A stretch of 64,000 nt of DNA, taken from assembly GCA_003833135.1 (NCBI GenBank), contig QZLH01000224.1, positions 1-64,000 of the forward strand, written 5' to 3'. Under the pieces are notes generated by a model, which was not told the DNA's origin, did not search any database, and saw only the letters and a program-made list of their open reading frames with translations. Below, one piece after another: positions 8,232 through 61,300 of this stretch; position 1 is the first letter of the stretch, and every line of letters starts with the position of its first letter. Position numbers and translations under genes: made by a program. This DNA is from Oehlia diaphana (taxonomy: Eukaryota > Glomeromycota > Glomeromycetes > Glomerales > Glomeraceae).

Positions 8232-10337
8232 AAAAGATTGATTGTATTACTAACTTAGAAGTTAATGAAAACCAAAGAAAAAAAAATATACATATAGACG
8301 ATATTTTTCTTTAGACTATATTGTAAATGTTTAGCTCAACCCCTTTATTATTTTTTTTTTTTTTATTCAATATTATATAGAATAAAAAACCACAATGCAT
8401 AAATTTGAATTAAATAAAAATATTCATATTATACAAAAAATTATTCAGAATTTTTAAGTTAAAAGATTAAATAATGGTAAAAACAAATTGATAATTAAAA
8501 GATTCAAAATAAGATTTAAACAAAACATTAAAGATTTAAATAAGATTCAAATCAAAACTTTAAAGTTTCAAATAGGATTTTAAATATTTAAACAAAATTT
8601 CAAAAAATTCAATAATATTCAAAATTAATAAAACTCAAATAAATATTTAAAATAAAAATTCATAATATTCATAGAAATTTTTATATTATTTTTTAAAAAA
8701 AACTTTTTTATAATATAATTTTTATTAAATAAATAATATTATAATAGTAATTATAAAGTAAAATACATTATATTAATTTTAGGAATAAAAAAAAAAGTTA
8801 TTTATAATTAAAAATTTTAAATAATAATTATTATTTAAAGAAAATTTTAAATTTACTTGTTAAAATTATTAAAAGTATTAAATTTAAATACAATTATAAT
8901 TATCATTAAATTGATTTTTTTACGGTAATAATATAAAGTTATAATTATATAGAGATTTTTTTGTATAATTTTTTATAAAATGAATTATAAAGATTATATG
9001 AAGGAATTTTATAAATGTAATTATATAATATGATTATATAAATAAATTTTAGTAAAAATTCAATTAATTATAATTAATTAACATAATAAATTAAAGTAAA
9101 AAATTCAATTAATTTAATTTTGTTACCTATAGCATTTTTAATACTTTATTAAGATAAAAATAGTAAACTACAAATACTGAGTAAACTACATAAGATCCTA
9201 ATTTATTGAGTACTAAACTACTCATCATCTTACAGCAAATCAATTAATTTAATTATAAATAATTAATATAATAAATTTAAGTAAAAGTTCAATTAATTTA
9301 ATTATAATTAATTAATATAATAAATTTAAGTAAAAATAACTTAATTATAAATTAATTTACACAATAAATTTAAGCAAAAATTAACTTAATTATAAATTAA
9401 TTAATACAATAAATTTAAGCAAAAATTAATTTACTTATAAATTAATTAATACAATAAATTTAAGCAAAAATCAACTTAATTATAAATTAATTAATACAAT
9501 AAATTTAAGTAAAAATTCAATTAAATTAATTCACAATAAATTTAAGTAAAAATTAATTTTACAAAATAAATTTTATTGTGAAAGAATTCTTAAAAAATCT
9601 AAATAACAATGGTTTTATATATAATTAAAACTATACCAATTATATATACTTTAATAGTTATATTAGAAAAAATAACATAATCTTTTTAGGTAAAGATATT
9701 CTGCATTTATGTTTGATAATATTTCCAGGTTAGAAAAATAATTTAATCTAACCTTTTTAAAAATATCTATTTTTTGTATTTTAAATTTGGTAAATTTGAT
9801 TGGATAAATCTTTTAAAAATCGTATTTTCGGCCAATTAAAAACCTTCGTTTAACCTTTATTTTCTTTAAAGAATCAAATAATATTGTTAAATTATATTTA
9901 TCAATCTGTGTTAATAAATCTTAATTAAACTTGGTTAAATTATAAATTATAAAATATACTTCTAGTTAATCCAAAAATATGACATTCTAAATTAATTGAT
10001 AAAACTTTTTCGTAAATACTTCCTTATACAGTCTAATAAGTGTAGATCATGATTCAGGCTTCGTCACACAACCTTAAATGTTCACAGTTCACACGATATT
10101 TTTCTGGATGTTTCCAGCGCGAGCCAGGTGAAAAAAAACAATGATTATTGGCTATTCATTTAACACAACCAAACCACCGGAGTAGAATTTCCCAAATATT
10201 ATCTTTCAAAAAACTCCGTTCGTTAACATTTATAAATATTTAAATTTTTTCCAAGAATATTAAAGTTTTTTTTAAAAAAGTTGTTCTTTTATATTTTATC
10301 AAATATATTAAATAAATAATATTTGTCTAAATAAAAA
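8232..10337. other. AT-rich intergenic DNA with 3' UTR, minisatellite and Cdc37 promoter
   Basis: The first part should hold the 3' UTR of the upstream RRM gene. The remainder is very AT-rich, includes the 45-bp tandem repeat listed separately, and ends in the 5' region of the Cdc37 gene. No coding potential was found on either strand. Confidence 0.6.
9240..9570. repeat. 45-bp AT tandem repeat, about seven copies
   Basis: The core AATAAATTTAAG(T/C)AAAAAT recurs at about 45-bp spacing (near 9322, 9367, 9411, 9456 and 9501, with looser copies on both sides). Each unit also carries TTAATTATAAATTAATTAAT. It is non-coding and contains almost no G or C. Confidence 0.75.
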
Positions 10338-12049
10338 ATGCCTATTGACTATAGTAAGTGGGATAAACTTGAACTTAGTGACGACGACGACTTTGAATGT
10401 CACCCTAATGTGGATAAAGCGTCTTTTATTCGATGGAAACAAGCGGACATTCATCAAAAACGCGAGGAAAGACGTCGAAAAATTGAAGCTCTTAAACTTG
10501 AGACCTCAAATAACGTAGTATTACTTAAACGTATTGATGATATGATACAACAAATAATAGAAGGAGGAGTTGAAACTTTTTTACAAACAATTGAGAAGTT
10601 ACGAGAAACAAATAAAAAGATAGCATCCGAAGCAAAAGAAGCAAAAGATGAAAAAGATGAAAAAGATGAAAAAGATGAAGAATCTTCAGAAGATTCTTCA
10701 CAGAAAGAAGAACAGCTTGCATATCCAACTTTTGATCAAATGATGGGTGTTTTATTTGAAAGAATTCAAGATGAAGTTAAAAATGAAAGTCCAGAAAAAG
10801 TTGGGGAACAATTAAAAAATAAATTAATTGAACATCGTAATAAATTAAGTCAAAGACAAAAAGAAGCTAAACAAGAATTGGAGAAAGAAGAAAGAGAAGC
10901 TAGGAAGAAAATTACCATGGATGATATGCATACTGGATTTGATAAGTCGGTAGGTAATTTTTGTTAATCAAAGAATTTTCCGATTGTCTATATACTAATA
11001 AAATTTGTATATAATTTATAGTCTGTTAGTAAAGTCGCTAAAATTGAACCACCAAAACCTCAACCGAAAAAAACAAAAAAAAAAGAACAAGTTGTCGAAG
11101 TCTTAAATCCTAATGCTCAAATGAAATCACTTGATGATAACGAGGTAAATTTACAAATAATTTTTTTTTACTTTAAATTTTTGATAATAAAATTTAAAAT
11201 TTTAATAGAAAAAACAAGCTGAGGTAGATGAAAAAGACGATGAAAAAGAAGAAAGTGATGATGATGAGGAAGAGGAGCTTTTGACATCAGATCTTGCGAA
11301 AGAATTCGCAATGATTAAAGATTACGATAGGAGTTTCGAATTTATCACAAAACATCCTGAAGTCGTTTCTCAAGAGATAGTTGATCAAATTTTAGCAGAG
11401 GCATTCCAATCTCAATTAAAAGGAAAAGCCAAGTATGCAAAACAAGCTGTACATCAAGCGTGGTTATTACAGTACTGTCAAAAGCTTGGAAAAGATGGTG
11501 TTACACTTTTCTTCAAAAGGTATGTTTGAACCTTTATAAATTAAATATTTTATTTTATTTATTTATTTTTTTTTTATTAGGATAACTTCACCAAACCCTC
11601 AAGCACGTGAAGTTTTCATGAAGGACGTGAATGAAACCTATGACCGTATTCGTGAGCGTTGTCAAATTATGGCAGCAGAGAAAACTCAAAAGCCTCAACC
11701 TGCTAAACAAGTAGAACAGATTCAAATTGAAGTGACAGATCCTAATATGTCGCTTAACGTTCGTGTTCCAGATGAAAATGCTGCAGATGAAGAAGGAAAA
11801 AGGAAATATCAACTTTTTAAAACTTTACCTGAAGATTTCCAGGCAGCTTTGAAAACTACCGAAATAACGAAAATTAATAAAGTTTTAGGCGAAATGACTG
11901 TTGAAAAAGCTGAACATGTTTTACAAGTCTGTGGAGATGCCGATATTCTTTCAATTGAACCAGGAATTATTGATACAACGCAAGGTGAAGTTGTTCCGGG
12001 ACAAGAGATCGACAATGTGTCACATGATGATAGAAAAGCGGATTTATAG
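10338..12049 (+). CDS. CDC37: Hsp90 co-chaperone Cdc37
   Basis: Cdc37 delivers protein kinases to Hsp90 in the cytosol. The N-terminus MPIDYSKWDKLELSDDDDFE is diagnostic: it carries the YSKWD motif and a Ser14 in an acidic CK2 context (SDDDD). A coiled region and HPNVDKASFIRWKQADIHQKREERR follow. The middle contains a DEKDEKDEKDEE acidic repeat, then the conserved Hsp90-binding core (DLAKEFAMIKDYDRSFEFI, RIRERCQIMAAEK, KYQLFKTLPEDFQAALKT). Four exons: 10338-10949, 11022-11144, 11209-11519, 11581-12049, giving 504 aa, the usual size. The start is the first ATG after AT-rich leader sequence. The KDEKDE repeat (DNA near 10650-10680) could vary in length between strains. Confidence 0.97.
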
Positions 12050-13301: not shown

Positions 13302-16254
13302 TCATACAGCAATTTTCATACCTACATCAACAACATCATTAATTGGAATATTCCAATTTCCATATAATTCTCTTGAAATATTTTCCATGAAGACGTAACA
13401 GTTGATTAAAACTTTTTTCCCATAAAAAGCACTTGGTTTAGGTTGAAGAGATTGTCGATCAAGGATATAAGTTACATGATTTTCAGGATTTGAGCTTTCT
13501 GATAAATCTTCACAATTTGGATCGATTTTACGAATTTCTTTAATCATTTTCGTTATAAATTCCTCTCCTTGAGAAACAACTTCCATATAACCATAACGTG
13601 CAATTACACGATAACAACCGTTATAACGAACTTTTTTCACAATTAAACGATCATCATCGCCAACAAAAGGAATTGCAAGATGACGTATACTGATGAATAT
13701 GAGAATTTTTTGTACCGCAGGAAAATGATGTACAAAATGTTTAAACGTAAGGGGAACACCATATCCTGCTCCATTATAAAACATTCCAATTCCCGGCAAT
13801 CTACTAACTTGATATCCATTATTTGAAAGTTGAAGTTCACCACTTTTTAGTTTTTTAGGTTCGATTGAAGATACTGGATTTCTTATTATAATTTCATCAT
13901 CATTTCCAAGTTCTGAAATAGATTTTTCGTTATCTGGTATTGATGATTTGTCATCAGGATCGGCAAAAATGTTTTCAAAGGTTGACTTTGAATCGAGCTC
14001 ATGTTGATATTTAAGATTTGCACCCCATCTCCAAATCAACATAACACTGGTAAGAATTACCCCGAATGTTAATGTAAACCAACCACCGTTATGAACTTTA
14101 AGAAGGGTAGAACTCAAAAATGCCATATCAATTACACCAAAAATCAAGAAGAAAACAATAGAAACTATAATCGGAAGTCCCCAAACAACATGGATTGTTA
14201 TAGATAAGAGAATTGTTGTAATAAACATCACCGAAGCAACTGCGACACCGTAAGCGATAGTTAATTTAGCGGATGCTTGGAAAGCGAAGCAAACTATCAC
14301 AACAGCAACCATAAGGATGTAATTAATCTGTAAAAAATAAAATTATTGTCAACACTAAATTTTGGTATCAAAAATTACTTTTAATTAATTACCTCAGGAA
14401 TATAAATTTGTCCTTCAATTTTCTTTGAAGTGTGTACAATCTAAAAAAAAGCAGAGAACATTTTAATTCAAATATTACAAATTTATCGAATGATTTCATT
14501 TCGGTTAAGGACGTACTTTGACTCTTGGGAAAGAATCTAATTGCATTGCCTGACTTATTAATGAGAATGTGGCAGAAATCATCGCTTGAGAAGCAATGAT
14601 TGTCGCTAAAGTTGCTAGGACAAAGGTGATCCAATAAATAAAAGGGTTGTTCGGTACCGTATTATAAAATGTGTTTGAAACAAGTGTATTATCCAAAGTT
14701 AAACGAGCGGCTTGCCCAAGATAAGCCAAAACTAAAGAAGGATAAACAATTAGTGGAAAAGAAAGTTGAATAGCAACGCGATTGAAGTGGCCTAAATCAG
14801 CATATAAAGCTTCAACTCCTGTTATGGATAGCAAAACTCCACCGAGAGCTTCGAATCCCGTTCCTTTATTACGAATAAAATAATCAAATATATAGTATGG
14901 ATTGAACGCTCTCAAAATTTTTGGATCGAACGTAATATTCCATATTCCAATAGATGCGATTGCCACGAACCATAAGAAAACGATTGGAGCAAATAAACCT
15001 CCTACTTTATTTGTGCCAAATTGTTGAACCGCAAACAATATAATAAGAATTCCGCTTTTTATTTTATAAAAAAACAAGTCAGTTGATTTAAGCCTTCGTT
15101 AATTTATTTGTGTAAAGCTGTTAATTCTTACCAGCTAATGTAAATAATAGCTCCATGTGTTGATGGAGATGCAACTGCAATTCCCTCTACTGCGGATATT
15201 ACAGATATAGCTGGAGTTAACAAACCATCACTCATGATTAATGATGCACCAAGTAAAACGACGATTGTCAAAAAATTTTGTACAAATTTGTGGCGTTTTA
15301 TAAAATTCTGATTTTCCTTAGTACTATGAGTTGACATGGACTCGTAGTTTACGATTGTAAGATCGTCAGGTCTTTGCTCATCGTGAACACTTAGACCTGA
15401 ATTTCTTTTAAAGTAATTATACAATAAATAACTTGTAAGATTAAATAAAAATTTATATTTAAACGAAATTTTCTTACCTAAACAACAAGGAATAAAGAGC
15501 AAAAGTACCACCCTGTCCATTATCATCTGCTCTCAAAACGATAAAAATATACTTGATCATGGGAACGATAGTCTAAACGATTTATGAATTAATAAAAATA
15601 GCAAAAGTATTGAAATATATCTGTCGTGAATCATACCAATGACCAAATAATCAGAGAACAAGCACCTAAAAGTTAATCGATACAAATAATAAATAAAGAA
15701 ATATAATTTATTTTCAATAGAACAAGAAAATCAAATAATATATACCAACGATATCACGGTTATCTTTAGGTACATCTGGAAAAATTGCCGTATACACGTA
15801 TAAAGGGGATGTACCAATATCTCCATAAATCACACCTTTTGATGAAGAAATCATAAAGAATTAAAAGCTGATCAAATTTTTTCGGATTCACATGTATATT
15901 TACCAAGAGTTCTAAAAGCCATTATCAAGGTAGTCATGATTCCAATGTCCTGAAATAAATACCGATATCAACGAAACTCTATAATAAAAGTAAAAATCTT
16001 TTTCATCACACCTTTTTTGCCGTTTGCTTATATTTGTATATAAGTTCTTTCGATGACGTAGTTTGCAATTTTATATCAAAATTATTCGTCATATTGATAA
16101 ATTTGGTCCGATAAAAAAGACACTGAAGAAGAAAAAATAAAATAAAAAACTTTTTTAACATATTTATAATTTTTACTTTTTTTAAATTTTGATCCGATCC
16201 GAAGGCCCACCAATCCTTAATTGTGGACGTTGATTTTTGCGAATCACATTCCAT
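13302..16254 (-). CDS. HAK/KUP-family potassium transporter
   Basis: Plasma-membrane K+ uptake protein of the KUP/HAK/KT family, about 777 aa. The diagnostic motif [20 protein letters not shown] is present, followed by [32 protein letters not shown], and [18 protein letters not shown] before further membrane segments. The C-terminal third is hydrophilic ([20 protein letters not shown]). Ten exons from the 5' end: 16177-16254, 16012-16122, 15904-15949, 15746-15835, 15637-15665, 15478-15572, 15132-15404, 14517-15054, 14393-14440, 13302-14327; the sum is a multiple of three. One exon is only 29 nt. The start could be ATG 16254 or, less likely, the downstream in-frame Met in exon 2 (MTNNFDIK). 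A fungal HAK may work as a high-affinity K+ or K+/H+ system; affinity cannot be read from sequence. Confidence 0.95.
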
Positions 16255-16914: not shown

Positions 16915-18019
16915 TTACAATAATTCTGTCACACCATTGGCAATTGATGAACGCCAGTTTTTTGCTCTTTCAAAGCCATTTGTATTTTTATCATAATCAA
17001 ACATTGTTTGAAATATTTCTTCTTCCGAGTTCATCACGAAAGGTCCGTAATTTACTATAGGTTCCTAAGTGGGGGGGGGGGGAATGATTTTGTAAATTCT
17101 TGTAAATTCTAAAAAAACTTTTTTTTAAGAAAAAAGAAAATAAATATTTACCTTTAATGGTTTTCCCGTAAACAGTACAAATCTCAAATCTCCATCTTTT
17201 GCTTCTACAGAAATATGATCTCCATTATCATCTAAAAATAATGCACTATGTTCTTCGCCCTTAAATTGATTTCCACCAAAATAACCAATCCCATTTAAAA
17301 CATATATAAATCCTTGATGATCTTTTGGAATGTTTTGTATAATCTTTTTTCCTTTTTCAAGTTTAAAATCCATAATCATTGTAGGAGTTCTTGTAAATAC
17401 TGAACTTTTTACTCCAAAGCTTTCTCCCGCAATAATTTTTACTTCAATTCCAGGTTCAGGTTTTGCTCTTGGAATATCATAATCCTTTAAATCTTGATAC
17501 GCAGGTTCAATCATTTTATGTTCTCGTGACAAGTTGATCCAAAGTTGAATACCGCGAGAAGGCATATTTGAGGCAGGCATTTCAGCATGAATAATACCAC
17601 GACCTGCTGTCATCCATTGTACGTCGCTATAATATGATAGTAAAAAAAAAAATGAATATAAATAGATTTTTTTTTAACAATAATTAAAAAAAATTTATGT
17701 ACCCGGGTCCAATTAACCCTTTATTTCCGCCAAAATCTTCATGTGCAATTGCACCTTCTAATAGATAAGTAACAGTTTCGAATCCTCGATGGGGATGATC
17801 CGGAAATCCGGCTGGCGGAGTAACTTCAAATATATCACACAACAAAAATGGATCTAAAGTACTTGATCCACCTAAACATCTTCGAACCGTTGCACCAGCT
17901 CCTTCAGATCGAGTCTAAAATTAAAACTTAAGAAGTTAGTAACGAAATCTAATCATATCTTCTCTATCAATATTATCTACCTTTGCAAAAAATGATCTTG
18001 TAATATTTCTAGCTGCCAT
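16915..18019 (-). CDS. Pirin family protein (cupin)
   Basis: Bicupin iron protein, 291 aa. The N-terminal metal site is complete: FPDHPHRGFETVTYLLEG supplies two His, and GRGIIHAEMP supplies the third His and the Glu. The C-terminal cupin half follows (GFIYVLNGIGYFGG, LFLDDNGDHISVEA, RFVLFTGKPLKEPIVNYGPF). Exons: 17981-18019, 17703-17914, 17152-17626, 16915-17064. Pirins are nuclear redox-sensing co-regulators in animals and quercetinase-like in some microbes; the role here is unknown. The last intron contains a 12-C tract (plus-strand G run 17071-17082) acting as a polypyrimidine tract just before its acceptor, unusual in such AT-rich DNA. Confidence 0.96.
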
Positions 18020-27349: not shown

Positions 27350-30300
27350 TTATCGGAGTTTCATAAATATAAGATAACATGCCTAAAATATAAATATACG
27401 TTAGCAACTTCACCTTTTTAAATAATATTAATTGATTAGATTGGCACTTACATGAACAATTGATAAATGTTCTATTTTGTCGTCTTCGTCCAAAATGCAT
27501 TGTTCTTCTATATAATCATCTTTTTTTGTGATTTTTTTCTTATCTTTGGCATAACCTTCAGGCACTGTTACCACGAGTTCTTTTAAAGGCATTTTATCTT
27601 CTCCAACAGAATTATTTACATCTTCCATAAAAAGCATACTAAGTGGCCATAATTTATTATCTGAAGTTCTTACATCTTGCCCTCCAATGACAAAAAATCC
27701 CGATGGAGGTAATCTTTCGTATGCTTCTTTTGCTAAATGTTTAATTGCTGTACGGTAAATTGGTATAATTTGTGAGGTGAGAAGATTATTGGGAATATGC
27801 GGTACAACAATTAATGCTGTTGGTACCGGTGGCGGCAATGGCATACTGTGTAATATTTTTTCAAGATGAGAAATGTCATCAGATGTTTCTCCAAGGTCAC
27901 ATTTTAACCCCTATTAAATTTAATAAAAACAATTACATTAAGTACTATATGTATTTTATTAATTTAAACTAAATAAAGTTTTATTTACCAACGAAAGTAA
28001 CATTTTTTGATTTTCCTTGATTCTCTTTTGCCTAATACGCTCATATTCTGGCATATCTTCTTCATCATTGTCAATTTGATCTATAAGTTTCCAAAAAAAG
28101 TAAATAATGATATCAACCACAAATAAGAGAAATAAAATTATAAAATTGCAAAAGATTACCTTCAAACTTAGTTAATTTGTCGCTTGAATCGTCATTAGCT
28201 ATATTATTTGGCTAAAAAAAAAAATAATAATTATCATCATATTTAACATAATAGTAAACCAAATATTACTTTTACATACCTCCATATTATTAAATTTTAT
28301 CTGAATTTCTTCCCAGTTGGCAAAATCTCTACCAAATCGTTCAACCTATATGAAATTATTTCTTAATATTTATTTATTATCATACTATTTTTCACAAAAA
28401 TGTATCAAGAAAATTATATACCATTCGTGAAGTACAAAGTTGAACAAAACTATGTGTTCTTGTTGGTTTAAAAGTCCAAGTTGTACCCATAACAACACTT
28501 TTTCGTGCAATAGGCAGGACTGGAATTTCTCGAAGATTTCTTGAAAATATCACCGTACCTGATAATGTTGACTCATCTGAAATTCAAATAGCATAGATTT
28601 TTTTTTATTCTTCGTGACAGTAACATGTTTTGTTATTGAAAATATAAACCGAGTCATACCAGGTGTTACCAACATTCTATTATTATGTGCTTTATCCACT
28701 TTCTTAAATGTTGCAATAAATTCATGTGTAAACATTAGAAAGTCATACTGTACACAAAGATATGTCCCAAGTCCAAACGCTTGGCAATATCTCTGACGTT
28801 TTGCAACCTTTTATATTAGAAAAGGAAAAATAATTTTTGAGTACTTAAATTAATTTACAAGAGAAAAAAATTTTTTTTGCATCGAGAAATTACCAGCTCT
28901 TCTAATTCAAATCCCTGATCTATGTATTGGCGGAATAAATTGAAACTGACTGGAACATAAAAACAATGTTCTCGATTATCCCCAATTCCTAAAGTAACTC
29001 TTCTTCCGGGCTTTAACAGCCTTTAAACGTGTATATATAAGGATGATTAACCAAAGAATTCATCAAAAAAAACCTAAATGACTTAGATTACCTCCAAGAT
29101 TCATCAATAACTTTACTCATTTCTATAGCAAACTCTTTCGAGTTTGCAAATCTTGATAAATCACCGTCAATATGTGTTGAATACTCGACACTAATTAAAT
29201 GAGATAATTAGAGGTATAGCTAGAAAGAAAATTATAATTCTAATTGAATTTACTTTCTTACCAGTTTTTATAAGGCGGGTGGCTTAATATATGGTCATAA
29301 GATTCAACTTCAAACATTGGTCCTGACAAATTTCTAGAATCAGCTTGAAGTATTATCGGTCGATGTTCAGCCGTGATGTCTCTATTCGGTGGTATCGCGA
29401 AAGAGCAATTACGTTGTGACAGAGCAACTGCTGCCTAATTATAACAAAAAATAGTTATGAAATAAATAGATAAGAATAAAATTATGCTATTATCAAAAAA
29501 ATTTTAAACAAAAGATAGCTTACTGGGTTAATGTCGACGCCAACAAGTCTTTATAATTGAAAGAAGTTTATAAATGGTGAAATTATTTTAATAAAAAATA
29601 TAATGCGTATATAATTTTTACCTCCTTCCAAGAAGAAAAGATTCAATAGCGTCCGTTCCTAAAATATTTAAAATACGTATATTTTAACATAATAATTATT
29701 TTTTAAATATCATTTTGATGATAGCCAACCTCTTCCTAGGAAATTTGATAATACTTTTCCATTCTTCTTTGTGAAGCGAAGTAATGCTCTAAAATATTCA
29801 GTTAAATTATGAACAATAAAAACTAATCTGGCCCTATTCCTATTAAGGAGTAGCTTACCTGCGGACAGTTTGTGGCAACCAAGTACCATGATAATCGGTA
29901 CCGCTGTGAGTAGCCCCTAATTTTGATTAAAGTTAACAATGAATATCCAAGCCGTGAAATTTCTCGAACAACTTACATCTTGGAGCACGACCCGGAATGT
30001 CAAAATAGGAGCTATCAAAAGATAAAGAAAATAGTTGATTCTCCACAGGTTCATAACTATCTAAGTACATGGCCTGAGATTCAAAGTCATCGAATTTTTT
30101 ATCAGAACAGAAATTTCTCGTTAAATATGGTTGGTACGAATAATCTTCGCTTGTAACCAATAATTTATCTTTCTCTTGAGGTTCTCCCGTATTGTTATTA
30201 ACTAAAACTAATTCAAAACAATCTTCACACATAAGTACTCCGTTATATCCTATTAATTAAATAAAAATTAAAGTTATATAAAAATTATATGTACCATAGA

Positions 30301-33300
30301 ATATTAGAAATTACCTTTCCTCCAACGAGAAGATTCTTCCGCCCAACAATATGAACATTGAATTCGTCCTCCTTTATTTTGTAGCGAATTTTTAGATTTC
30401 TTCCGCATTCCTAATGATATTGAATTGTAAATCAAAAGTCGATTTATCATTTAATCAGGTATGATCATGATTTACCTGCATTACGAGCTTTTTGATTTGC
30501 AACAGCAAGTGTTGCTTGTTTTGTGATTTGAGCATCTTTGATTTTCTTGACAGCTATTAAAATAATTGAGATTGCATTATTATTATACTAACAATAAGTA
30601 AATACAGTGGCTACATACATGTTTCTTCAAATTCATCTTTTTTGTGCTCGTGTTCAGGAAACTTTATTTCAAAGCACTAAATAATATTTTATTGTAATTA
30701 AAAATTTAAATATATGTAATATATATATTCATATTATAGATGATTAATTACCTGTAGACACAAATCAAACGATGAGAAAAAATTTGATTCGCATGGTCTA
30801 CATGTCATCCATTTGTCTTCTTGTAATTCACATGAACACACATCACATCGATAAACTTCATTGTATAATTCTAAAAAAAGGAAAAGTTATTAATTTCAAA
30901 AATAATGATATATCTGAATATTAAACATTTGATTTTACCTTTTTGATTATAACGTGCTTCATGACTAGGACAATAGAAAATAACGCCCATTTCAAAATGT
31001 GAAAGCGGTTTATCCGTACACGAAAGATGATAACTTTTAGCACATTTAGGTTCGAAACATCCGATCGTAGCACCACGTTCCTTACATTTACCACATTTCT
31101 AAATTATCATAATGAATTTGAGAAATTCTTATTTCTATTGATAAATTATTAATGCAAATGTATAAACTTATACCATGCTTCTGCCCCTTTTCCAAGCTAA
31201 TGTTACATTATACCATTCATTAGATTTTGTGAAAAAAACTTCTGGCGAATATTTCGCGCATGCATAATGAGACCAAAAAGTCTTTTGCTTTTCACCATGA
31301 CGTGTGTAGGTATTAGAAACAAAAGGATACGGAGCTATAAAACCACCAAGTTGATTTGTGTCATCGTCATTGCAAAAGCCGCATATCTTACGCATATTCC
31401 ATGCTTGTAAATAAAGATATCCCATATCAGTATCTAATGGCACTTTGTCGCTCGTTATATCAAATTCCGGTTCTTTATATGTGGTATCAAAAACATCTCT
31501 TTCAAAAGTTTTAACAACTTCACCCTTGGAAGACATTTTAATTGCTTCATCGTCAATGACCGATTGAACGGCAAAAGAACAACGAGGATGTTCGTGATAA
31601 TTTGGAAATTGATGCGCGAAACACCTGATTAGAGGAATCAAATTAATAACTATAACTTAATTAAAGTATATAGCAAGAAAAATCTCTTACCATACACAGA
31701 GTTCAAAGCTTTTATAATCGTTGCCCTCCGATCGCGACTCACAATAAGTACAATAATACCTAGGGAAACATTCATTAACATTCATTTCGTAAATTATTCG
31801 CTTTAAGAGTCAATTTGAAATAAAAGATTCACCTGAATTGTTTAATTACTACATTACATTGATCGCAATATATACACCATTTATCATTGGCTATTTAAAA
31901 AAAAAAATTAAATTATTATTATTCAACGCTGAGATATTGTTCATATTCACTAACCTGTTATCAACCTTCCATTAAGTGCACCATTTACAACAAATTCCAA
32001 ACGATAATCATCATTCTCAACTTTGTCTTTCTTTTTCTTTAAATCTTTTTTGGTCTCCAAAGAAGTCGTTACAGATTTGACATTCTTTGCAACTTCTTTA
32101 ATTTCATTTTTTGTACATTTTTCACGAAGTCTTTCGCTGCTAATATCGATCCATTCATCGTAAAATGCTGGGACGTCATCATAGTGTATTAGTACTCTAC
32201 AACCTTTAGTTTCAATGATTGTTGCAGGCACCCATTCCTTCAATCTATCTCGTACTTCAATTTGGTTTCCTGGCTTAAAACGATATTTTAACTTAGCAAG
32301 GACATCAGAATTACTTAATAATTTGTCATTACGAAGGCTACGACGTGTATCTCGTCCGATATAATATTCATTCCAATCAAATGATATTGTAGAATCTGTC
32401 GAATGATCACTTTGCTGATCAGGTAAACTTGAATCAACATCAACTTTAATATTAGCTGTTTCGGTTGAATCCATTGACTTTGTTACTCTATTTGATTGAG
32501 TTACGGTAGATGACTGTATTGTTCGTTTCAAGTTGCTTCTTCTTCTTTTTTGGGGTTTATATATTATTTCTCTCTGTTTAAGCGTTTCCTTATCTAACTG
32601 TTCCAGTGCTTTTTGTGCTTCTATTATTTCTTCAAGTGTCATGTCTCTCATTCTCTGACTTCCCGCTGGAATCCATTCGTCGAAATAATCACTCCAGCCA
32701 TCAAAGTGAACCCGAATACGACTATCTTCAACATCTACCATCGTAGCTGGATACCATTCACCGTCACGACTTAGTACTTTGACGCGTTTGTGAAGCTCAA
32801 AACCATATTGACCACCACGTTTAAAACGAAACGTAGCGTCATCACCAAAAAGTGACCTACAATAAGTACACAAATCAAGACTACCTATTCTTTGCACATT
32901 TAAATGCGCAATTTTACATGATTCGCATATTTTTTCCTTGGATGATTGATGAATTTTCTTGCGTATCGGAGTCTTATTATTATGTCTTACAGTCCTTTTA
33001 ATTTTAGGCATTTTTACCTCAAATTCATCGTCACTAGAACTACTGAGAGAGTTATAATGTGATTCGGAAGCGCTAAGAGATTGTGATGATGATATTGATT
33101 CAGTGCAACTACTTAAAGAATCAGAATCAGAATCTGGTACACTACTAAGGGATTCAGAGTCTGAACCCAATATTTCCTTTAGTTTATATGCGTTCAATTG
33201 ACGTTCTTTATCAATATCACGAGAACATACGGAATCTTTTTTCGGTTTATCATCAACATTATCAAATTTTGGCGAACTCTCGGACGTGGAAGCTTTAGTT

Positions 33301-36300
33301 TGATTCTGGTCTTGATTAGACTTATTTTGCCTATTATCTGCATCATCTGATAATTGATTTTCTTTTTGAACTTCATTTACTTCATCTTCCGATAAGGCTT
33401 TCAATCTTCGGCTTTCTACAGATATCCATTCGTCAAATCTTTTACCCCAACCATCAAAGTGAACTTTAACTCTGGATTTTTCTACATTTACTATTCTTGC
33501 AGGATACCAAATTTTATCTATATTAAGTACTTGAACTTTTTGATCTAATGTGAAGTCATGTGCAAATGCTTTGATTCGTGTTAATTGAGGTGCAAATAAT
33601 GGCACACATTTTGTGCATAATTCAAGAGCACCTACTTTCTCTAATTTATCAAAAATGTTTTCGCAAGAATTGCATTTTTTTTTAACAACATTCGTGGGTG
33701 ATTTTGGACGAGAATGAGAATTATTTTTCTTTTGCTTACGATCAATAGATTTCTTTGTTTGAGACAATTGTACTTTCGGTGAACCGCGTACTTTTTTTGT
33801 ATTATCACCAGAACTCGTTTGTTTTTTCGTGGGCCTCTTTTTCGTACGCTTCGATTTTAACGAAAAATCTGTTTGAGGATCTTCTGTAACTGTAGTAATA
33901 GATATAGATTCTCGTTTTTCAATTTTATCAATTAAGTGTTGTTTAATCATTTCATAATTATTTTGTGAAGAATTCTCCTGTATTTCAAGAATTTCTTCAT
34001 CACTCATTACTCTTAATCTTCGACTATCTTTCGATACCCATTCGTCATATTTTGCATCCCAACCATCAAAACGTACTCTAACTTTGGTTTTGTCCATTGC
34101 AATGATTGTGCCAGGATACCAAATACTATCAACATTAAGAACTTTAACACGTTGATTCACAGAATAACCCTCAAATTTTGCAAAAGCAAGATCTCTAATA
34201 CTTCGACGTGTAAATATAGTCCCAGAAAATTTATCTTTTTCAATTTTAGTTGAATTATTTGAAGAATGATTAGGATTTTCTTTATCATCACATGTAACTT
34301 GAATAGTTTCTTCGGGTTTTAATCTTAATTTTGCATAGCTGAAATCCACTTTTGAAAATGAATTAGTTGATTCGGCTGTTGAATCAACATCCGGATTCTC
34401 ATTACCGGTAAGTTTAATATCAGAATCTTCAAATTCTGACGAGTCATCTACAATTATAAATGATTCTTTAGGACTTTGAATATCTTCAGAATTGTTTTTC
34501 AAATGGTTAATAGGAAGACTTTCTTTTAAGTCATTCCCTGCTTTTTTATCAATAGGTATGGCAAAATCATCATTAGTTACATTAGTAGAAGTGAATGAGT
34601 CTTCGAGTGTTTCATTAACGACAGGTGTATCAGACTCGTAGCTTAATTTTGATTGATTACTTATTTTCTCATCTTTTTCCCGCTGAATTTCATTTTCTGA
34701 ATTTGAAATTATGTTCGTACTTTCATTTCTTATAATTGGACTTAAAATCGGCGTTGCTGAAATTTCTGGAATTGAATTTGATGAAACAAGTGAATTTTCT
34801 TGGAACTCATTATTAGAATTAAGTAAGTTATTATTTAAACTAGAATCAGCAATTAATTTTGTATATTTAGTTAACTTTGACTCCAAATTAATTGTCTCAT
34901 TCGCGTTTAATGACGCAAAATTAGACACTACTATATCATTAATAGTTTCTGAATTATTAATAATTGGATTAGAATTATAGTAAGAATTTTCTAAAACAGT
35001 ATTAGAAATAGTTATTGGTGGATCATTAATGTCTTTTTCCTTGATAACCATATCATCTAATTCCATATTATCGCACGCAACTCCACTATCCCGGCGACTA
35101 GAATTTTCATTCTGAGAAAGTGAATCATCAAAAATTATACTTTCACTGGAATCAATTATATTACTATAGCTATCATCATTAACAACTTCCAAAATATTAC
35201 TTATACTCTTAGAACTAAGCATATCTGTATTAACTTGTTGCAATATCTGAATATTCTCTGATGAGGTAGAGTCATGTACATTTGGAATTGAATCGATTTC
35301 CACATCCAACTTGATTTTCTAATAGGATAAAATAAATAAGCTTTTAAAAACACGTTATTCAATCACCCACAAAGTAATTGAATAAATCTTACCTTTTTTA
35401 TACCAAATACTTCATAATTCTCATCATCTGCTAAAAACGATTTAGAAGAATTGTTATTTAATCGATTGATCTTGTCCTTGCTAACTCTTTCCTTTAAGTT
35501 AATTTCGATTTTGTTTACATTTTTTTTCTTTGTAAATAGTTTACGGCCATCATTTTCATAAATGTGAAATGATTTTGTTAATGAATCATTAGATAAAGGA
35601 ACGGTCGATGACCTTTCATTATCGGAAGGTCGGATCCGCTTTTTAGACTCATTGTCATTCTGCTTTATGAATTCAGATGATGGTTTTGGAATAATTTGAT
35701 CGTTAATAATATTATTCTTCGAATGTTCAACGACCTTTTTCTTTTTGTTTCTTTTACTCTTTTTAGCTTGCGTTATCTGAATAAAGAATATTCATTTATG
35801 TATTGTTATTGACGAAAGAATTTATTTTAACAAAATAATTTTGTTTACTTACATTTTCAACATTCTCAACATTTTCATTGTTATTATCCGTTGGGTAGGT
35901 AGGGAACTGCGGAATTATAGCTTTATGGAAATCGTTAGGCTGAGTTCCATGTTGATAAAAGTGTTGGACTGGCCGTTGCGAAGGAAAATATTGACAGTTA
36001 TTAGGTTGCTGTGGATAAGAATAATTAGGTACTGGATGATGCGAATATTGCTGCGAAAAATGATAAATTGGATAAGGCTGTGTTCCGAGAGGAAACATTT
36101 GGCGATTCTGCCTATCAAATTGCTTTGGGGCGTATTGACACTCCTAAAATTAAGGATTAATAATTTAAATTTATGATAAATTGTTTTTGTATTATATCTA
36201 TTTGAAGTATATACCGTTGAATTTGTGATCGACCAATTTGAATTGTTGTTATTATTTGGCGCGTGCCATGTTTGATAACCTGAATGCGAGTTAAAACGTG

Positions 36301-36699
36301 GCGAAGCTGAATAACTGTTGCTTTTCAGATTTTGGTCTGAGCTGTACGCATATTGATTATTTGTAACTTCATTGTGGCGGATGAATCCACGTTTGTTCTT
36401 CTTAAATTTATCATGTGATTGATTTGGTGGTCGAAAATAAAGAGGAGGATTGATCTGATGTGCATTATTGAAAGTTGATACAATTGGCCGTTGTGGGAAG
36501 TAATTTTGAGGAGGCGGTGGCAATAAATGGTGAGGATTTACTCCTTTATTAGAGTAAATAAAATTAATAATCAAAATATTTATTTAACGATTTTCAAATA
36601 TACCAACTTACCGGGAGGAGTTTCAGTTCTATTTAATTGCCAGTTAGAAGTTGAAGTTACTTCGACATTTTGTTCAAAATTCTCATAAGGGAGATACAT
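27350..36699 (-). CDS. Chimeric chromatin-reader / N6-N4 DNA methyltransferase-like protein (about 2,470 aa)
   Basis: One phase-consistent multi-exon chain runs from ATG 36699 to TAA 27350-27352. Residues ~1-240 are Asn/Pro/Tyr/Gln-rich and ~240-750 are disordered and acidic. Then come four Tudor-knot-like repeats in one 3.4-kb exon (core WYPxxI...V(R/H)FDGW...DEW), two preceded by CxxC...CxxC knuckles. Cys-rich fingers (CIYCDQC, YYCTYCES) follow, then an extended PHD (KICGFCND...WSHYACAKYS...KCGKCKERGATIGC...SYHLSC), another Cys-rich finger (YRCDVCSCELQED...CRPCES), and a GATA-like finger (CSYCWAEESSRWRKG...CEDC). Last is an amino-methyltransferase: motif I KVLSNFLGRGTDAIESFLLG, RLVGVDINP, motif IV DHILSHPPYKN, then WRLLKPGRRVTLGIGDNREH. 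The reader modules imply chromatin targeting; methylation of DNA adenine or cytosine N is inferred from the family. Start position is uncertain. A gene split between reader and enzyme is possible, but every junction checked keeps frame. Confidence 0.85.
27440..29920 (-). other. Amino-methyltransferase module of the chimeric protein
   Basis: About 540 residues over many short exons. The order is: target/adaptor start THSGTDYHGTWLPQTVRRAL; SAM-binding motif I NFLGRGTDAIE and acidic loop VGVDINPAAV; DITAEHRPIILQADSRNLSG; catalytic motif IV SHPPY (codons at plus 29270-29284); CVEYSTHIDGDLSRFANSKE; and WRLLKPGRRVTLGIGDN. A later segment (SGFFVIGGQDVRTSDNKLWP then LSMLFMED) looks like a second, perhaps degenerate, Rossmann-like half. 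The arrangement resembles bacterial N6/N4 DNA methylases (motif I before motif IV, beta-type order) more than eukaryotic MT-A70 enzymes, whose motif IV is DPPW. Confidence 0.82.
30945..31640 (-). other. Extended PHD (ePHD) finger of the chimeric protein
   Basis: Two exons encode the pre-PHD knuckle (CGFCND), the conserved HYACAKYSPEVFF segment, then AWKRGRSM / KCGKCKERGATIGCFEPKCA and KSYHLSCTDKPLS...YCPSHEARY. The Cys/His spacing and the GATIGC...C...YH..C core are typical of ePHD modules in chromatin regulators. Confidence 0.85.
32119..34178 (-). other. Four Tudor-knot-like repeats
   Basis: Repeat 1 (34004-34178), VNQRVKVLNVDSIWYPGTII...VRVRFDGWDAKYDEWV; repeat 2 (near 33400-33560), VQVLNIDKIWYPARIV...VKVHFDGWGKRFDEWI; repeat 3 (near 32635-32805), VKVLSRDGEWYPATMV...IRVHFDGWSDYFDEWI; repeat 4 (32119-32280), IEVRDRLKEWVPATII...VLIHYDDVPAFYDEWI. 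This pattern matches Tudor/chromo-barrel modules of PHF20/MRG/Tip60 type that bind methyl-lysine or nucleic acid. Repeats 2 and 3 each follow a C-x2-C...C-x2-C knuckle. Repeat 4 is the most divergent and loses the Gly-Trp. Confidence 0.85.
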
Positions 36700-56225: not shown

Positions 56226-57381
56226 TTATTGTCGTGAAGTTTTCAATTCTTCCAATATTCTATTTGCTCCTTTTTCTATCAAAATTGCGGCAACCTCTCT
56301 ACCAAGTTCATTTGCTGCCTCGATTCCATCCTCATCAACGTTTTTTTGAGCTTCAGCTTTAATAACTTCTGATCCATCTAGTTTTGCTACTAATCCTAAT
56401 AATTTTAATTCTCGTGTTCCATTTTGTGTCTCTATGAATTCCGTATTAACACCAATAGGAACACTGCATCCGCCTTCTAAAGTGCGTAATAGTGAACGTT
56501 CTGCTGAACATCTTAATCTTGTGTCTTTATCTTCGAGCACGGACAGTAGTTCAATAATTTGTTTATCATCAACTCGACATTCTACAGCTAACGCACCTTG
56601 CCCAACCGCATATAACATAACATTTGATGTAAAAATCTGAGAGATCCGATGTCTCATTTCTAAACGTTCAAGACCTGCTACAGCTAAAACAAGAGCAGAA
56701 TACGGTCCATTTGGATCATCTAATTTTGCAAGTCTTGTATTTCTAAGAAATTATAATCGTTCTTAAATTTGTATAACTAAAATAACAAATAATAAACAAA
56801 TTAATTTAAAAAATGGCAACTTACAAATTCCCTCTCTTCATATTTTTGCATTCAAAAAGATTATAATATTAATAATTATTAAACAAATTAAAACATTTTT
56901 ATTAAAAATAGAAATAAATTCATACAACGTCCTGAAATACTAAATCCGGGAAAGCAGCTTTCAATTGGGCTATTCTTCTGGTACTGCCAGTACCAATTAC
57001 ACTACCTTTTGGCAGTTCATCCACTGACTTGTATGATAAACCTTCTTTAATGACGAGAGCATCTCTAGGATTTTCTCGTTTTAAAACAGCTGCAATGGTC
57101 ATTCCCTCTGGAAGGGTAGTAGGTAAGTCTTTAAGGCTATGAACAACTAAATCTACAATTTTATTTTGTAACGCTATTTCAAGTTCTTTGGTAAATAAGG
57201 ATTTTTCACCGATACGAAATAAAGGTTTGGAGAGAATTTGGTCACCGATCGTTGTCATGCTTGTGATGGGAAACGAGTGGTCAGGAAATGAAGCTTCCAA
57301 CAGTTGTTGTACATGTTTAGTTTGAATTAAAGCCAGTTGAGATTTACGACTACCTATTGTAATCTCAGAACTCGAAGCCAT
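56226..57381 (-). CDS. HEM3: Porphobilinogen deaminase (hydroxymethylbilane synthase)
   Basis: Third common step of haem synthesis: joins four porphobilinogens into hydroxymethylbilane in the cytosol. 327 aa. The start MASSSEITIGSRKSQLALIQ is followed by TKHVQQLLEASFPDHSFPIT, the catalytic-Asp segment LVVHSLKDLPTTLPEG, substrate-binding arginines in GTGSTRRIAQLKAAFPD, VRGNLNTRLAKLDDPNGPYS, and the dipyrromethane-cofactor Cys in LEGGCSVPIGVNTEFI. Exons: 56926-57381, 56825-56835 (11 nt) and 56226-56742; together a multiple of three. The tiny exon encodes the RGN of the conserved RGNLNTR motif. The stop (TAA) follows TSRQ. Confidence 0.97.
56825..56835 (-). other. 11-nt microexon of PBG deaminase
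   Basis: Minus-strand AGAGGGAATTT lies between an AG acceptor (ATATGAAG) and a GTAAGT donor, in phase 0 in and phase 2 out. It joins GTT to A-AAT-ACA to restore VRGNLNTRLAKLD, the highly conserved motif. Skipping it would shift the frame. Confidence 0.9.
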
Positions 57382-58346
57382 TATAAAATCTAAAGTTCGA
57401 ATCGTGATCTGCGTAATCGGGAATAAAATAGTAATGCAATAAAATGCAATGCTAATTGCAAATATGGTTAGCAGTCAAGTGAATTGTCTATCCATTATTT
57501 GGAGACTAAAGCCGGAAATCGGAAGTTGACGGCCAGTCATCCATTTCTGGTTACATCTTTGGCTTCTGTACCCTTATAAATTACAACATATCACAATCGC
57601 TAAATCGCGGCGTTATAAATGTGATATACGAGAACTTCTCTTTATATGTAGATCATGTCAAAATCATCCCATAGTTACTAATAAATCCTGAATCCCATTG
57701 GTTTAATGCAATTATACAACAGGAAATCACAATTTTATTTTTTTCTTTTATTCTTTTTTTTTGCACAACAAACAACTAATCAGGAACTCATTAAGTCCTT
57801 ACAGTTGATAACCAGACGTTGACTGCTTCAACAAAAAGTTCTTACTCTTGTAACTTTTCTTTAGCGGAAAATACGTCTTCCTATTAACTTTTTTTAGACA
57901 TTGGTCTTTCGTTCCTATTTCGAGAGTCTATACCTTAATTAAACTAATTGGTCCGTCTTCGAGGCCAACGAGAATGTCTTGATCATAAAAAGAATTGGTT
58001 GGTGTCCACGACTTCCTTGCCGTGTTTGCGTCAATCCCTTTTTCTGATCTGGCGTATGGTGACAACGAATGCACAAGCACTTTCTTCTTTCAACTTTTCT
58101 TATATTTTTAAATACCATATATAATATTATTTATCAATATTGTTTTATAATCCTTATAATTTCTATTTCTATAAAAAAATTAACTAACCTGTGTAATATA
58201 GACTCTAAATATTTTATAACTTTTTACATCTATCTAGTACCTCTAGTACTCGGTTTTTTTTATTTCTATATATTTTTTTTTTACCAAAATTTCCGACAAT
58301 CTCACTAGAAAGTGTCTGTGCAGAAAAATTTTGCGCTAGACAAAGA
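57382..58346. promoter_or_regulatory. Divergent promoter/leader region of PBG deaminase and R3H gene
   Basis: 965 bp between divergent start codons. The first ~650 bp are less AT-rich than other gaps (for example CTAAATCGCGGCGTTATAAA near 57600) and may carry leaders. A low-complexity frame at 58069-58308 looks like chance. No RNA gene was recognised. Confidence 0.5.
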
Positions 58347-61300
58347 ATGTCAAAGAGCTTGTCCCAAAATATGGTAAGAATTTATTCTCTTCTTACAAAC
58401 ATGGCGACTTACCTTGAAAGTCGACTTTTTTTTATTACAATTTCTAATTAAATATTGTTTATAAAGCCTTCTTTTGTCAAGTCCGTTTCTGAAAACTCAT
58501 CTCCTATCAATAATGTTATCGTCGATGATTCTTCAACAAATACAACTTCGACAACCGAGGTCAAGAAGATTGTATTGTTGAAACGAAATCCAAACAATAA
58601 CAATGTGACCAATAATAATAATAGTCCTACGAATAATACTGTAGGATCTAGTAATGTTGTTCAATCGTATGAATTATTACCAACTCCTAATAGGTCTGCT
58701 ACATCATCACCAAGCCTTGAAAGTGAATTAACTCCAGAACAAGCCGCACATCTTGGTGAAATCGATTTTAATACAGGTCTTGATGGGTTCTTGTTGGCTG
58801 CTCTAAAGAACCAAAAAGACAGACTATTTCTCTTAAAATTAGATCAAGAAATGGAACGGTTTATAAAAGAAAAAAAGTATGTAATTCTTATTTGATGCAT
58901 GTATTGTTTATTATTTAATTGTTTTTTTTTTATTTAATTACAAACTGTTTAAATCTAATTTAGTCGAACACGATTAGAATTTCCGCCCATGAATTCCTAT
59001 CAAAGACTTATCGTTCATCGTGTTGCACAATATTTCAAATTATCGCATGTCGTCGATACTAGTGGAAAGGCTGTTGTCTTATATAAGTCTGCAGAAACTC
59101 AAATGTAAGTATTTTTAAGAAATAATAAATAATGCACGCTATAATTATTATTTTTTTCCTAACATTATATTTTATTCGTCATTAGACCTATTCTTAGATT
59201 TTCTGATCTTCTTGAACAAGAGGAGGAGAAACCTGAAAAATCCGTGAAAATCATGAGACGACAGCAGACGCACCCTCAAGGGCAACTGAGATCTACCGGA
59301 GATTCAGATAGTAACTCTGAAGGTGAACGCAAAATTTTAACAATTGAGGAACGAGAAGCTGCATATCAAAAGGCTAGGGCAAGGATATTTAAAGATTTAG
59401 AACAAAAAAATGGGGAGAATGAGCAAGATGACACAGAAGGATCTATTAATTCAAGTCCTAGTGTAAAAAATTCCAATATTATAACTACCAATGATGCCCA
59501 GAATAGTGATTCATCCCCTTCCAATAAACCCAAAGTGAATCAACAACAAAACAACAAAAATGGGAGCAATAATAAAAATGGTAAACAGTCACAGCAAGGT
59601 AATAGGACCGTCGGAAATAACAAAAACTCTAATAATAAAAATAATGGAAATAGCGCAAAGAATCGGCAGCAACAGCCAGCAAGAATACAGCCTTTTCCGT
59701 ATAATCCTCCAATGTTTATGAAGCAAGGACGTCCAATCCCGAATTTTCCTGGACCACCACAAATGATGCATTCCGGACACTTTTCTCCATTTTTTGGTGC
59801 GCCCATGAATATGTATGACGTTAATATGTTGCATATGCAACCAATTTTGCCACCCGATATGCAGCCGCACATGTCGAATCATTATATGCCTGATTGGAAT
59901 GCACTTGGCCCACCTTATGGACGCCCAGGTGTTAGAAATGTATGGGGGTCTGAATCGTTTAATGGTCCCCCTCAAGAAATAAATGGAGGTTCATCTTTGT
60001 TCAATCATCAACAAAATAATCCAAATTCATTTTTACCTCCCCGACCAGCAGCATCGCAAAATGATACAAATTTTGTTCAAAATCAGGCTCAAAATAACTT
60101 AAAACACATGTATCCACAGAATCCTTACGCACAACCCGTTAGTGAAGCCAATCATATAGTGGCTTCTTCCGTGTCATCAGGTGATGGTAATTCAAATAAG
60201 TCTTCATCGACCCGCGAAGGTACTACTTCTCTTATTTCTCCTCATTCTGGGTTTGATGGTGATAATTCTATTTGGACTAATAAACTTCATCGGGGAATTA
60301 CGCCAGGAAACGAAGGAATTAATGAAAATAAAATGAATGATCGCCAGCCAGAACAGAAAAGAACAAACAGAACTTCGTTTAATCCTCAATCTCAACAGCG
60401 TGACGTTCCGGTATATAATTTATCATAAATGTATTTTTGAAGTTAGGAAGAATAATAAATTATTCTAACAATTTTTACATTGCCATCAACATTATATCTA
60501 AAATAGTTATTTAATTCTGTCTGGAACAATCCCCCTGATTCCCAAGTTTTTAATCAATCGCAGACATCGAATGAGTTTTCAGTTCAGAATGTGCCAGGAA
60601 TGCCAATAATACCTCCCCACATGTATCCAGGAATGATACCTTCTCCAATGTCAGGACAGCCATCGGGCCCACGTCGTAACAATAATGGTAATCAAATATT
60701 TCCAGGACCGATTCCTCAAGAATACGTGAATATGCAGCGCATGGTGCCACCACCTATTATGGGATTTGCACCTCAACCAACACAACCAAATATGACAACA
60801 GGTGCAATAAGACCTCCAAAGTCATCGGAGCTATTTGATCCAAACAATCCAAACAATCCAAACAATCTTAACAATCTTCCTACCTCAACTACAGCCCCTT
60901 ATAATAAAGCTCCCGTTGCATCATTGCCAGCTAACAACGCAATTCAAGTATCACCTGTTCCGCCTACATTTGTATCATCACTACCCCCAAGACCTACTCA
61001 GCCAGCTATGTCATCCAAGGTTGTTTCACCATCAGGTAATAATAATTCTTCTTCAATGCCATGGTCTGGAGGATCAACGACAAGAACAAAGGTAACGACA
61101 TTGCCACCAAACCATAATAATTCTAATAATCGCCGTAAGAATACGAACGATAACAATAACAATAATGCTAGCAATAATTCTGTTGTGGATGGTACTATGA
61201 TGCGTTCTCTAAGCCTTTCGTCGAACAGTTCTCAGCAAAGCAGAAATCATCATAATAATCATAACAATCATAACAATCATCACCACCACCACAATCGAGC

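Follow-up and report, generated by a model that had tools for sequence, protein, structure and literature searches.

Can a fungal gene join an array of chromatin-reading modules to a prokaryote-type amino-methyltransferase (MTase) in one chain, and what would such a protein do? The question is raised by a stretch of 64,000 nucleotides (nt) from Oehlia diaphana (contig QZLH01000224.1, positions 1 to 64,000; 'the window' hereafter), for which an initial annotation, made from the letters alone, had proposed a single gene at 27350..36699 with four Tudor-like repeats, Cys knuckles, an extended PHD finger (ePHD), a GATA-like finger and an MTase.

Reader modules and methyltransferase in a single gene

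These bounds coincide exactly with a spliced minus-strand model, joined by hand, of 28 exons in one open frame of 2466 amino acids (aa), from an ATG at 36699 to a stop at 27350; all 27 introns are GT-AG and measure 60 to 89 nt. Protein P0160 of Funneliformis geosporum matches it in BLASTP with 70.2% identity over 2534 columns, covering residues 1 to 2466. Because of this full-length match the hand-spliced model is not a product of chance, and, as far as sequence can tell, the predicted reader–MTase gene is confirmed as real. Used as a query of its own 108.8-Mb genome, the protein found one locus only, with 7 exon matches; the PF01555 and PDLC03376 profiles found no match in that genome, presumably since the gene is cut by introns.

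The domain content of the annotation is borne out by splicing, Pfam and Cys patterns, and its motifs I (NFLGRGTDAIE) and IV (SHPPYKN) both stand in the spliced protein. Two further kinds of feature had escaped the annotation: a pair of ZZ-like fingers, and a second, degenerate copy of the MTase (D2), which follows the predicted catalytic domain (D1). The features are as follows.

27350..36699, minus strand: complete coding region, 28 exons, 2466 aa (spliced open frame; about 70% identity end to end with P0160)
34002..34166, minus strand: MBT/Tudor-knot-like repeat 1, aa 749-803 (Pfam MBT)
33594..33674, minus strand: Cys knuckle 1, CxxC...CxxC, aa 913-939 (sequence pattern)
33390..33554, minus strand: MBT/Tudor-knot-like repeat 2, aa 953-1007 (Pfam MBT)
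32847..32927, minus strand: Cys knuckle 2, aa 1162-1188 (sequence pattern)
32637..32801, minus strand: MBT/Tudor-knot-like repeat 3, aa 1204-1258 (Pfam MBT)
32115..32279, minus strand: MBT/Tudor/Agenet-like repeat 4, aa 1378-1432 (Pfam Agenet, best stretch 1381-1427)
31573..31876, minus strand: ZZ-like zinc finger 1, aa 1491-1545, across three exons (sequence pattern)
30949..31383, minus strand: ePHD, aa 1609-1728 (PF13771, 3.1e-9 at 1647-1724; N-terminal limit by Cys pattern)
30629..30847, minus strand: ZZ-like zinc finger 2, aa 1740-1787 (sequence pattern; several Cys columns conserved in alignment A5)
30212..30357, minus strand: GATA-like zinc finger, aa 1835-1861 (sequence pattern)
28697..30004, minus strand: MTase domain D1, predicted catalytic, aa 1931-2169 (PF01555; PADLOC type II MTase, 3.6e-41; Rossmann MTase model of relative P0003)
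29642..29745, minus strand: motif I NFLGRGTDAIE, aa 1974-1984, split by an intron (sequence; [NT]F.GRGTD in 134 of 155 relatives)
29264..29284, minus strand: motif IV SHPPYKN, aa 2050-2056 (sequence; SHPPY in 142 of 155 relatives)
28972..28983, minus strand: GDNR motif, aa 2103-2106 (sequence; GD[TAI]R in 80 of 80 prokaryotic relatives)
27353..28499, minus strand: degenerate second MTase copy D2, aa 2208-2466 (hhalign E 7.6e-7; predicted structure model)
27668..27685, minus strand: GGQDVR, D2 counterpart of GDNR (alignment; G.[QKM][DN].R in 105 of 111)

The annotated coupling of chromatin-reader modules to a prokaryote-type amino-MTase finds support on both sides of the join. On the reader side, Pfam MBT reached 9.6e-25 over four stretches of the whole protein, with Agenet/Tudor-like models falling on the same repeats, and zf-HC5HC2H reached 3.1e-9; the GW of repeats 1-3 is missing from repeat 4. 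At E <= 1e-3 the ePHD was found in all 28 chosen relatives, the MTase in 26 and the MBT repeat in 20, and many zinc-ligand columns are invariant in alignment A5 (28 relatives). The labels ZZ and GATA follow Cys patterns, with weak Pfam support (1 and 3 of 28 chosen relatives, respectively).

On the enzyme side, the annotation had proposed a search with the PF01555 profile; this model, N6_N4_Mtase, scored 28.3 bits (2.2e-6) in the whole protein and 52.7 bits in the 548-aa C-terminal part alone, both above the curated cut-off of 26.7. The 13 fetched eukaryotic relatives that do not show SHPPY are fragments or gapped models without that stretch, and the motif is invariant in the 28 relatives of A5. 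D1 shows the HPPY-type succession of motifs: GxG comes first, xHPPY second and GD.R third, and HE lies close to the C-terminus (alignment A3). In the Pfam scan of the window protein there was no row at E <= 1 for PF05063 (MT-A70), the motif being SHPPY and not DPPW, or for PF02384, the MetB family, and no row for THUMP or for the C5-MTase domain (PF00145). Against NCBIfam, D1 alone gave CcrM (5.5e-4) and TIGR01177 (0.0017) as best rows, and the PHROGs and NCBIfam searches returned weak or generic matches only. With profile A3, made of the window D1 and seven archaeal relatives, a search of PDB gave the modification methylase 2zie at 5.2e-21 and the tRNA enzyme Trm11 at 1.6e-7.

The C-terminus, by sequence comparison, is shown to be a decayed MTase copy that has lost the catalytic motifs and kept other signatures of the enzyme. 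Aligned by hhalign to a profile of D1 plus prokaryotic relatives, D2 scored 53.4 (E 7.6e-7), against at most 19.5 for 30 column shuffles, 11.1 when reversed and 13.5 for a DpnII control. Neither a PPY-type nor a GxG motif was present in D2 in any of the 111 checked, and a fold search with D2 gave no match at E <= 0.001.

A fungal family and its prokaryotic kin

Two protein searches define the distribution. Search 1, with the 548-aa C-terminal query, found 40 proteins among 8000 scored candidates; search 2 used a 1343-aa query, with scoring confined to 271 residues (aa 1843-2113) that run from the GATA-like finger to beyond GDNR, and found 145 among 1498; its figures come from 120 of the 145. 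Rows without organism name numbered 12 of 40 and 4 of 120, respectively. Among the matches listed, named eukaryotes were early-diverging fungi only: Glomeromycotina, Mortierellomycotina, Mucorales, Endogone, Umbelopsis, Kickxellomycotina and kin, together with Basidiobolus, Neoconidiobolus, chytrids and Paramicrosporidium; no named row among them belonged to Dikarya, animals or plants. The nearest was P0160, 94% identical in the scored part, a closeness that by itself would most likely place the window in a Glomeraceae fungus. Functional names were rare in these matches, one being 'DNA methylase N-4 [Mucor ambiguus]'. Three divergent proteins (P0024, P0033 and P0036) combine zinc-finger or ePHD parts with the MTase and form deep, long branches in the eukaryotic clade.

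We regard this as a real, conserved reader–MTase family of early-diverging fungi, apparently undescribed and probably ancient. The annotation knew of no described protein of this architecture, and we likewise found no published description of the join in the literature searched, which left out Iyer 2016, Iyer 2011 and Mondo 2017; but the protein is not a one-off, as many early-diverging fungi share the family. The 2016 review by Iyer and colleagues is said to list many eukaryotic adenine-MTase captures. The passages on PF01555 in PMC8885841 and PMC12344493 do not describe the fungal protein.

Search 1 contained a single row found to be prokaryotic, P0037, whose large set of kin has archaeal named rows. 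The prokaryotic set analysed here is the best 80 of 347 tblastn-confirmed relatives (L008-L087), from Campylobacterota, Patescibacteria, Bacillota, several archaeal phyla and others; these loci were picked by two peptide patterns and by likeness to the fungal protein, so that the counts are no census. The xHPPY motif was present in all 80 (42 THPPY, 34 NHPPY, 2 AHPPY and 2 IHPPY), as was GD[TAI]R, and HE lay within the last 45 residues in 77.

Open reading frames for DpnII-type nucleases accompany the MTase at 35 of the 80 loci. Where at least 2.8 kb of upstream sequence was available (55 loci), a Dam-like D12 MTase was present at 45, a DpnII-like nuclease at 27, the two together at 26 and neither of them at 9, according to small hidden Markov models built on 8 and 6 of the same loci; at L066 the Dam-like enzyme lies downstream instead. 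Archaea account for 8 of the 9 loci with neither partner, and of the 10 archaeal loci in this subset, 8 lack both. Checked against Pfam, neighbouring frames proved to be D12 in 8 of 10 tried and DpnII in 7 of 10 tried; of a third batch of 10, taken mostly where DpnII was lacking, 3 showed nuclease or defence domains, and the other 7 had housekeeping domains, unknown ones or none. The HPPY enzymes appear from these loci to be a bacterial and archaeal family that occupies a DpnA-like place at many Dam/DpnII loci.

As side observations, a PDDEXK_11 nuclease, a TOTE primase-helicase and GmrSD adjoin or lie near HPPY MTases (L017:3387-7033, L020:1400-3061, L008:4753-5991), and on a Micrarchaeota contig a ParB_N/HTH protein is encoded directly downstream of the HPPY MTase (L039:4804-5913), with a divergent DpnII-like frame upstream.

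In a quick tree of 109 rows, the 20 eukaryotic rows formed one clade with a support of 100 in the Shimodaira–Hasegawa-like approximate likelihood ratio test (SH-aLRT), in a tree that carries a long-branch warning and 28 starred branches among 105 inner ones. A careful tree of 52 rows set 12 fungal rows opposite all 40 prokaryotic ones at 100/100. The annotation had assumed acquisition from bacteria, which is not shown: the fungal clade sits on a long stem outside bacterial and archaeal relatives alike, and neither donor is favoured by these trees. Since its nearest prokaryotic kin share HPPY and many stand beside Dam and DpnII, fungal D1 most likely descends from an accessory MTase of GATC restriction systems, judging from homology and locus context.

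Other donors were tried without success. None of 13 viral pattern matches was confirmed. With an Arcobacter HPPY enzyme as tblastn query, 89 phage records were returned, 4 of them covering at least 80% of the query, all below 60% identity, and at or below 34% in the 15 matches listed; the same query gave 845 plasmid records, again all below 60%, the best being 55% in Fusobacterium. Neither set was used as donors.

Proposed function and competing explanations

The reading that we prefer, with a probability of about 0.58, is that of a nuclear, chromatin-directed amino-MTase that acts most likely on DNA, with D2 as its partner in cis. The Tudor/MBT repeats, ZZ-like fingers and ePHD would dock on marked nucleosomes. 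Judging from conserved motifs and kin, D1 would bind S-adenosylmethionine (SAM) through NFLGRGTD and, with SHPPY as its active-site motif, methylate a nucleic-acid base at its exocyclic amino group, DNA being the most likely substrate; D2, whose degeneracy is shown, may serve as a non-catalytic partner that shapes the substrate site. D1 would stem from the HPPY-type MTase family, whose bacterial members are often neighbours of Dam and DpnII within GATC restriction systems, and D1 may go back to a remote ancestor shared by the listed fungi. We infer the nuclear role, the DNA substrate, the base, the age of the family and the role of D2 as a partner. A broader proposal, which we hold tentatively and at somewhat under even odds, is that early-diverging fungi possess a third amino-base machine besides MTA1c and MetB, derived from an ancient capture of a GATC-system MTase, in which histone marks set the pattern of N4-methylcytosine (4mC) or N6-methyladenine (6mA) through reader, HPPY MTase and decayed twin in one chain.

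As many prokaryotic kin belong to GATC systems, adenine N6 is the natural guess for the base, and we weigh it slightly above cytosine N4. That the same protein instead gives DNA the 4mC mark known from bdelloid rotifers and Marchantia seems to us somewhat unlikely. Captured bacterial 4mC MTases are known in the rotifer and in Marchantia, according to passages of PMC12344493. One archaeal relative, P0153, shares 59% identity with archaeal P0037 and bears the name 'Modification methylase MjaII', most likely assigned through similarity; MjaII is presumably an m4C enzyme, and the part consulted of a survey of archaeal restriction systems does not mention it. P0153 is itself the MTase of L084, a locus with Dam and DpnII, and it is at such loci that the accessory DpnA, 'adenine-specific' by its PDB name, methylates single-stranded DNA (passages of PMC3573125); the window protein moreover lacks the SPPY motif. 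Two possible m4C anchors, from methylome papers on S. acidocaldarius and C. bescii, were set aside as no sequence link was made to either; the latter enzyme is called alpha-class in the relevant passages. The annotation had also described adenine methylation as prominent in this lineage, which does not agree with Rhizophagus irregularis, the nearest studied fungus, where passages of PMC8298701 report high 5-methylcytosine (5mC) and low 6mA. In Mucor, where mta1 and metB were deleted in a laboratory strain, symmetric 6mA disappears without Mta1 or P1, and methylation of the asymmetric motif without MetB (passages of PMC11258239), so a 6mA role of the reader–MTase there would be small, conditional or masked; section 11 of that paper describes no double mutant of mta1 and metB.

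A chromatin-associated RNA MTase (of nascent RNA, snRNA or tRNA, for example), with reader modules serving for location only, is unlikely in our view. Three points weigh against our preferred reading: other enzymes already account for both 6mA patterns known in Mucor, which favours 4mC; a single-sequence PDB search with the window D1 leaves 2zie and Trm11 tied; and profile A3, which put the best DNA MTase about 13 orders of magnitude ahead of Trm11, is mostly archaeal. The predicted D1-type fold (model of P0003) also resembles that of Trm11/TrmN, tRNA enzymes that combine THUMP with a DPPY-type MTase. Against an RNA substrate stand the family models, which place D1 with type II DNA MTases (3.6e-41), and the prokaryotic family, found for the most part at restriction loci; PUA_4 and Tudor-knot, the sole Pfam rows of the window protein with an RNA link, are confined to the Tudor repeats. 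A reader or scaffold protein whose MTase no longer works is improbable: D2 has decayed and motif IV carries His instead of the usual D, N or S, but HPPY in 80 of 80 prokaryotic relatives and SHPPY in 28 of 28 in A5 argue that catalysis was retained. We give hardly any credence to two neighbouring genes wrongly joined in the model, as the same join is predicted in the genomes of distant fungi and exons continue across it with short GT-AG introns.

If the chromatin-directed amino-MTase is active, a single chain would couple histone marks to a DNA mark of prokaryotic type, as a conserved, unassigned writer in lineages from which few amino-base writers are known, all of them recent finds. It would also, to our knowledge, be the first case in eukaryotes of an amino-MTase partnered in cis by a pseudo-MTase. 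Active and inactive MTases pair as two chains in METTL3/METTL14 and MTA1/MTA9; here the pair is within one chain, and D2 would be an independent case of such pairing. Family members in Mucor lusitanicus (P0223) and Rhizopus microsporus (P0214) make the question directly testable.

Comparison with known systems and genomic surroundings

The closest parallel is N4CMT of bdelloid rotifers, likewise a PF01555-type amino-MTase of prokaryotic origin fused to a chromatin reader in a eukaryote. Passages of PMC8885841 describe a permuted enzyme, with the catalytic motif (SPPY) before the SAM domain and one C-terminal chromodomain, found in bdelloids only and without eukaryotic homologues. The fungal protein, in contrast, places the SAM motif ahead of SHPPY, carries an ePHD besides its four Tudor-like repeats as well as a tandem D2, and occurs in many fungal lineages; the permuted order, SPPY and chromodomain were not found in it. 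The annotation's view of a design independent of N4CMT agrees with this motif order (I, then IV) and SHPPY.

Among bacterial systems, DpnA/M2.LlaDCHI shares a locus with Dam and DpnII, a place taken by HPPY enzymes in many bacteria. The second MTase of pSRQ700, a Lactococcus plasmid with a DpnII-type system that we take to be the LlaDCHI plasmid, carries DPPY ahead of its SAM motif, relative to which the HPPY family is a circular permutation; the DPPY-before-SAM order is not that of the window protein. DNMT3-type 5mC enzymes also carry histone-reading modules in the chain of a DNA MTase, but they are C5-MTases, of which the window protein shows no Pfam row.

Mucor MetB and MTA1c are similar as writers of early-diverging fungi, MetB being prokaryotic in origin and MTA1c combining an active with an inactive MTase. 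They differ in that MetB is PF02384 and Mta1 and Mta9 are MT-A70, with the active and the inactive MTase on separate chains; by the Pfam families given in the relevant passages of PMC11258239 none of metA, metB, metC and mta1 is the window gene. A 2026 review of fungal 5mC and 6mA names MTA1c, MetB and METTL4 as 6mA writers, and 4mC, Tudor and PF01555 do not occur in the portion of its text covered here (PMC13297926). Besides the reader–MTase gene, the genome of the window holds MT-A70 matches (7 exon matches on 4 contigs) and N6_Mtase, the Pfam family of MetB, at 3 places (G000 contigs C1563, C76 and C1280; L104-L106), to which the window gene would add. The three N6_Mtase places are uninterrupted frames of 244 to 494 aa and could be fungal MetB or endobacterial contigs.

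The locus is surrounded by ordinary fungal genes, encoding Cdc37, a K+ transporter, pirin, porphobilinogen deaminase and a SUZ-domain protein, which lie at the following window positions.

10335-10967: neighbouring ordinary fungal gene
13302-15098: neighbouring ordinary fungal gene
17125-17673: neighbouring ordinary fungal gene
56226-57474: neighbouring ordinary fungal gene
59163-60428: neighbouring ordinary fungal gene

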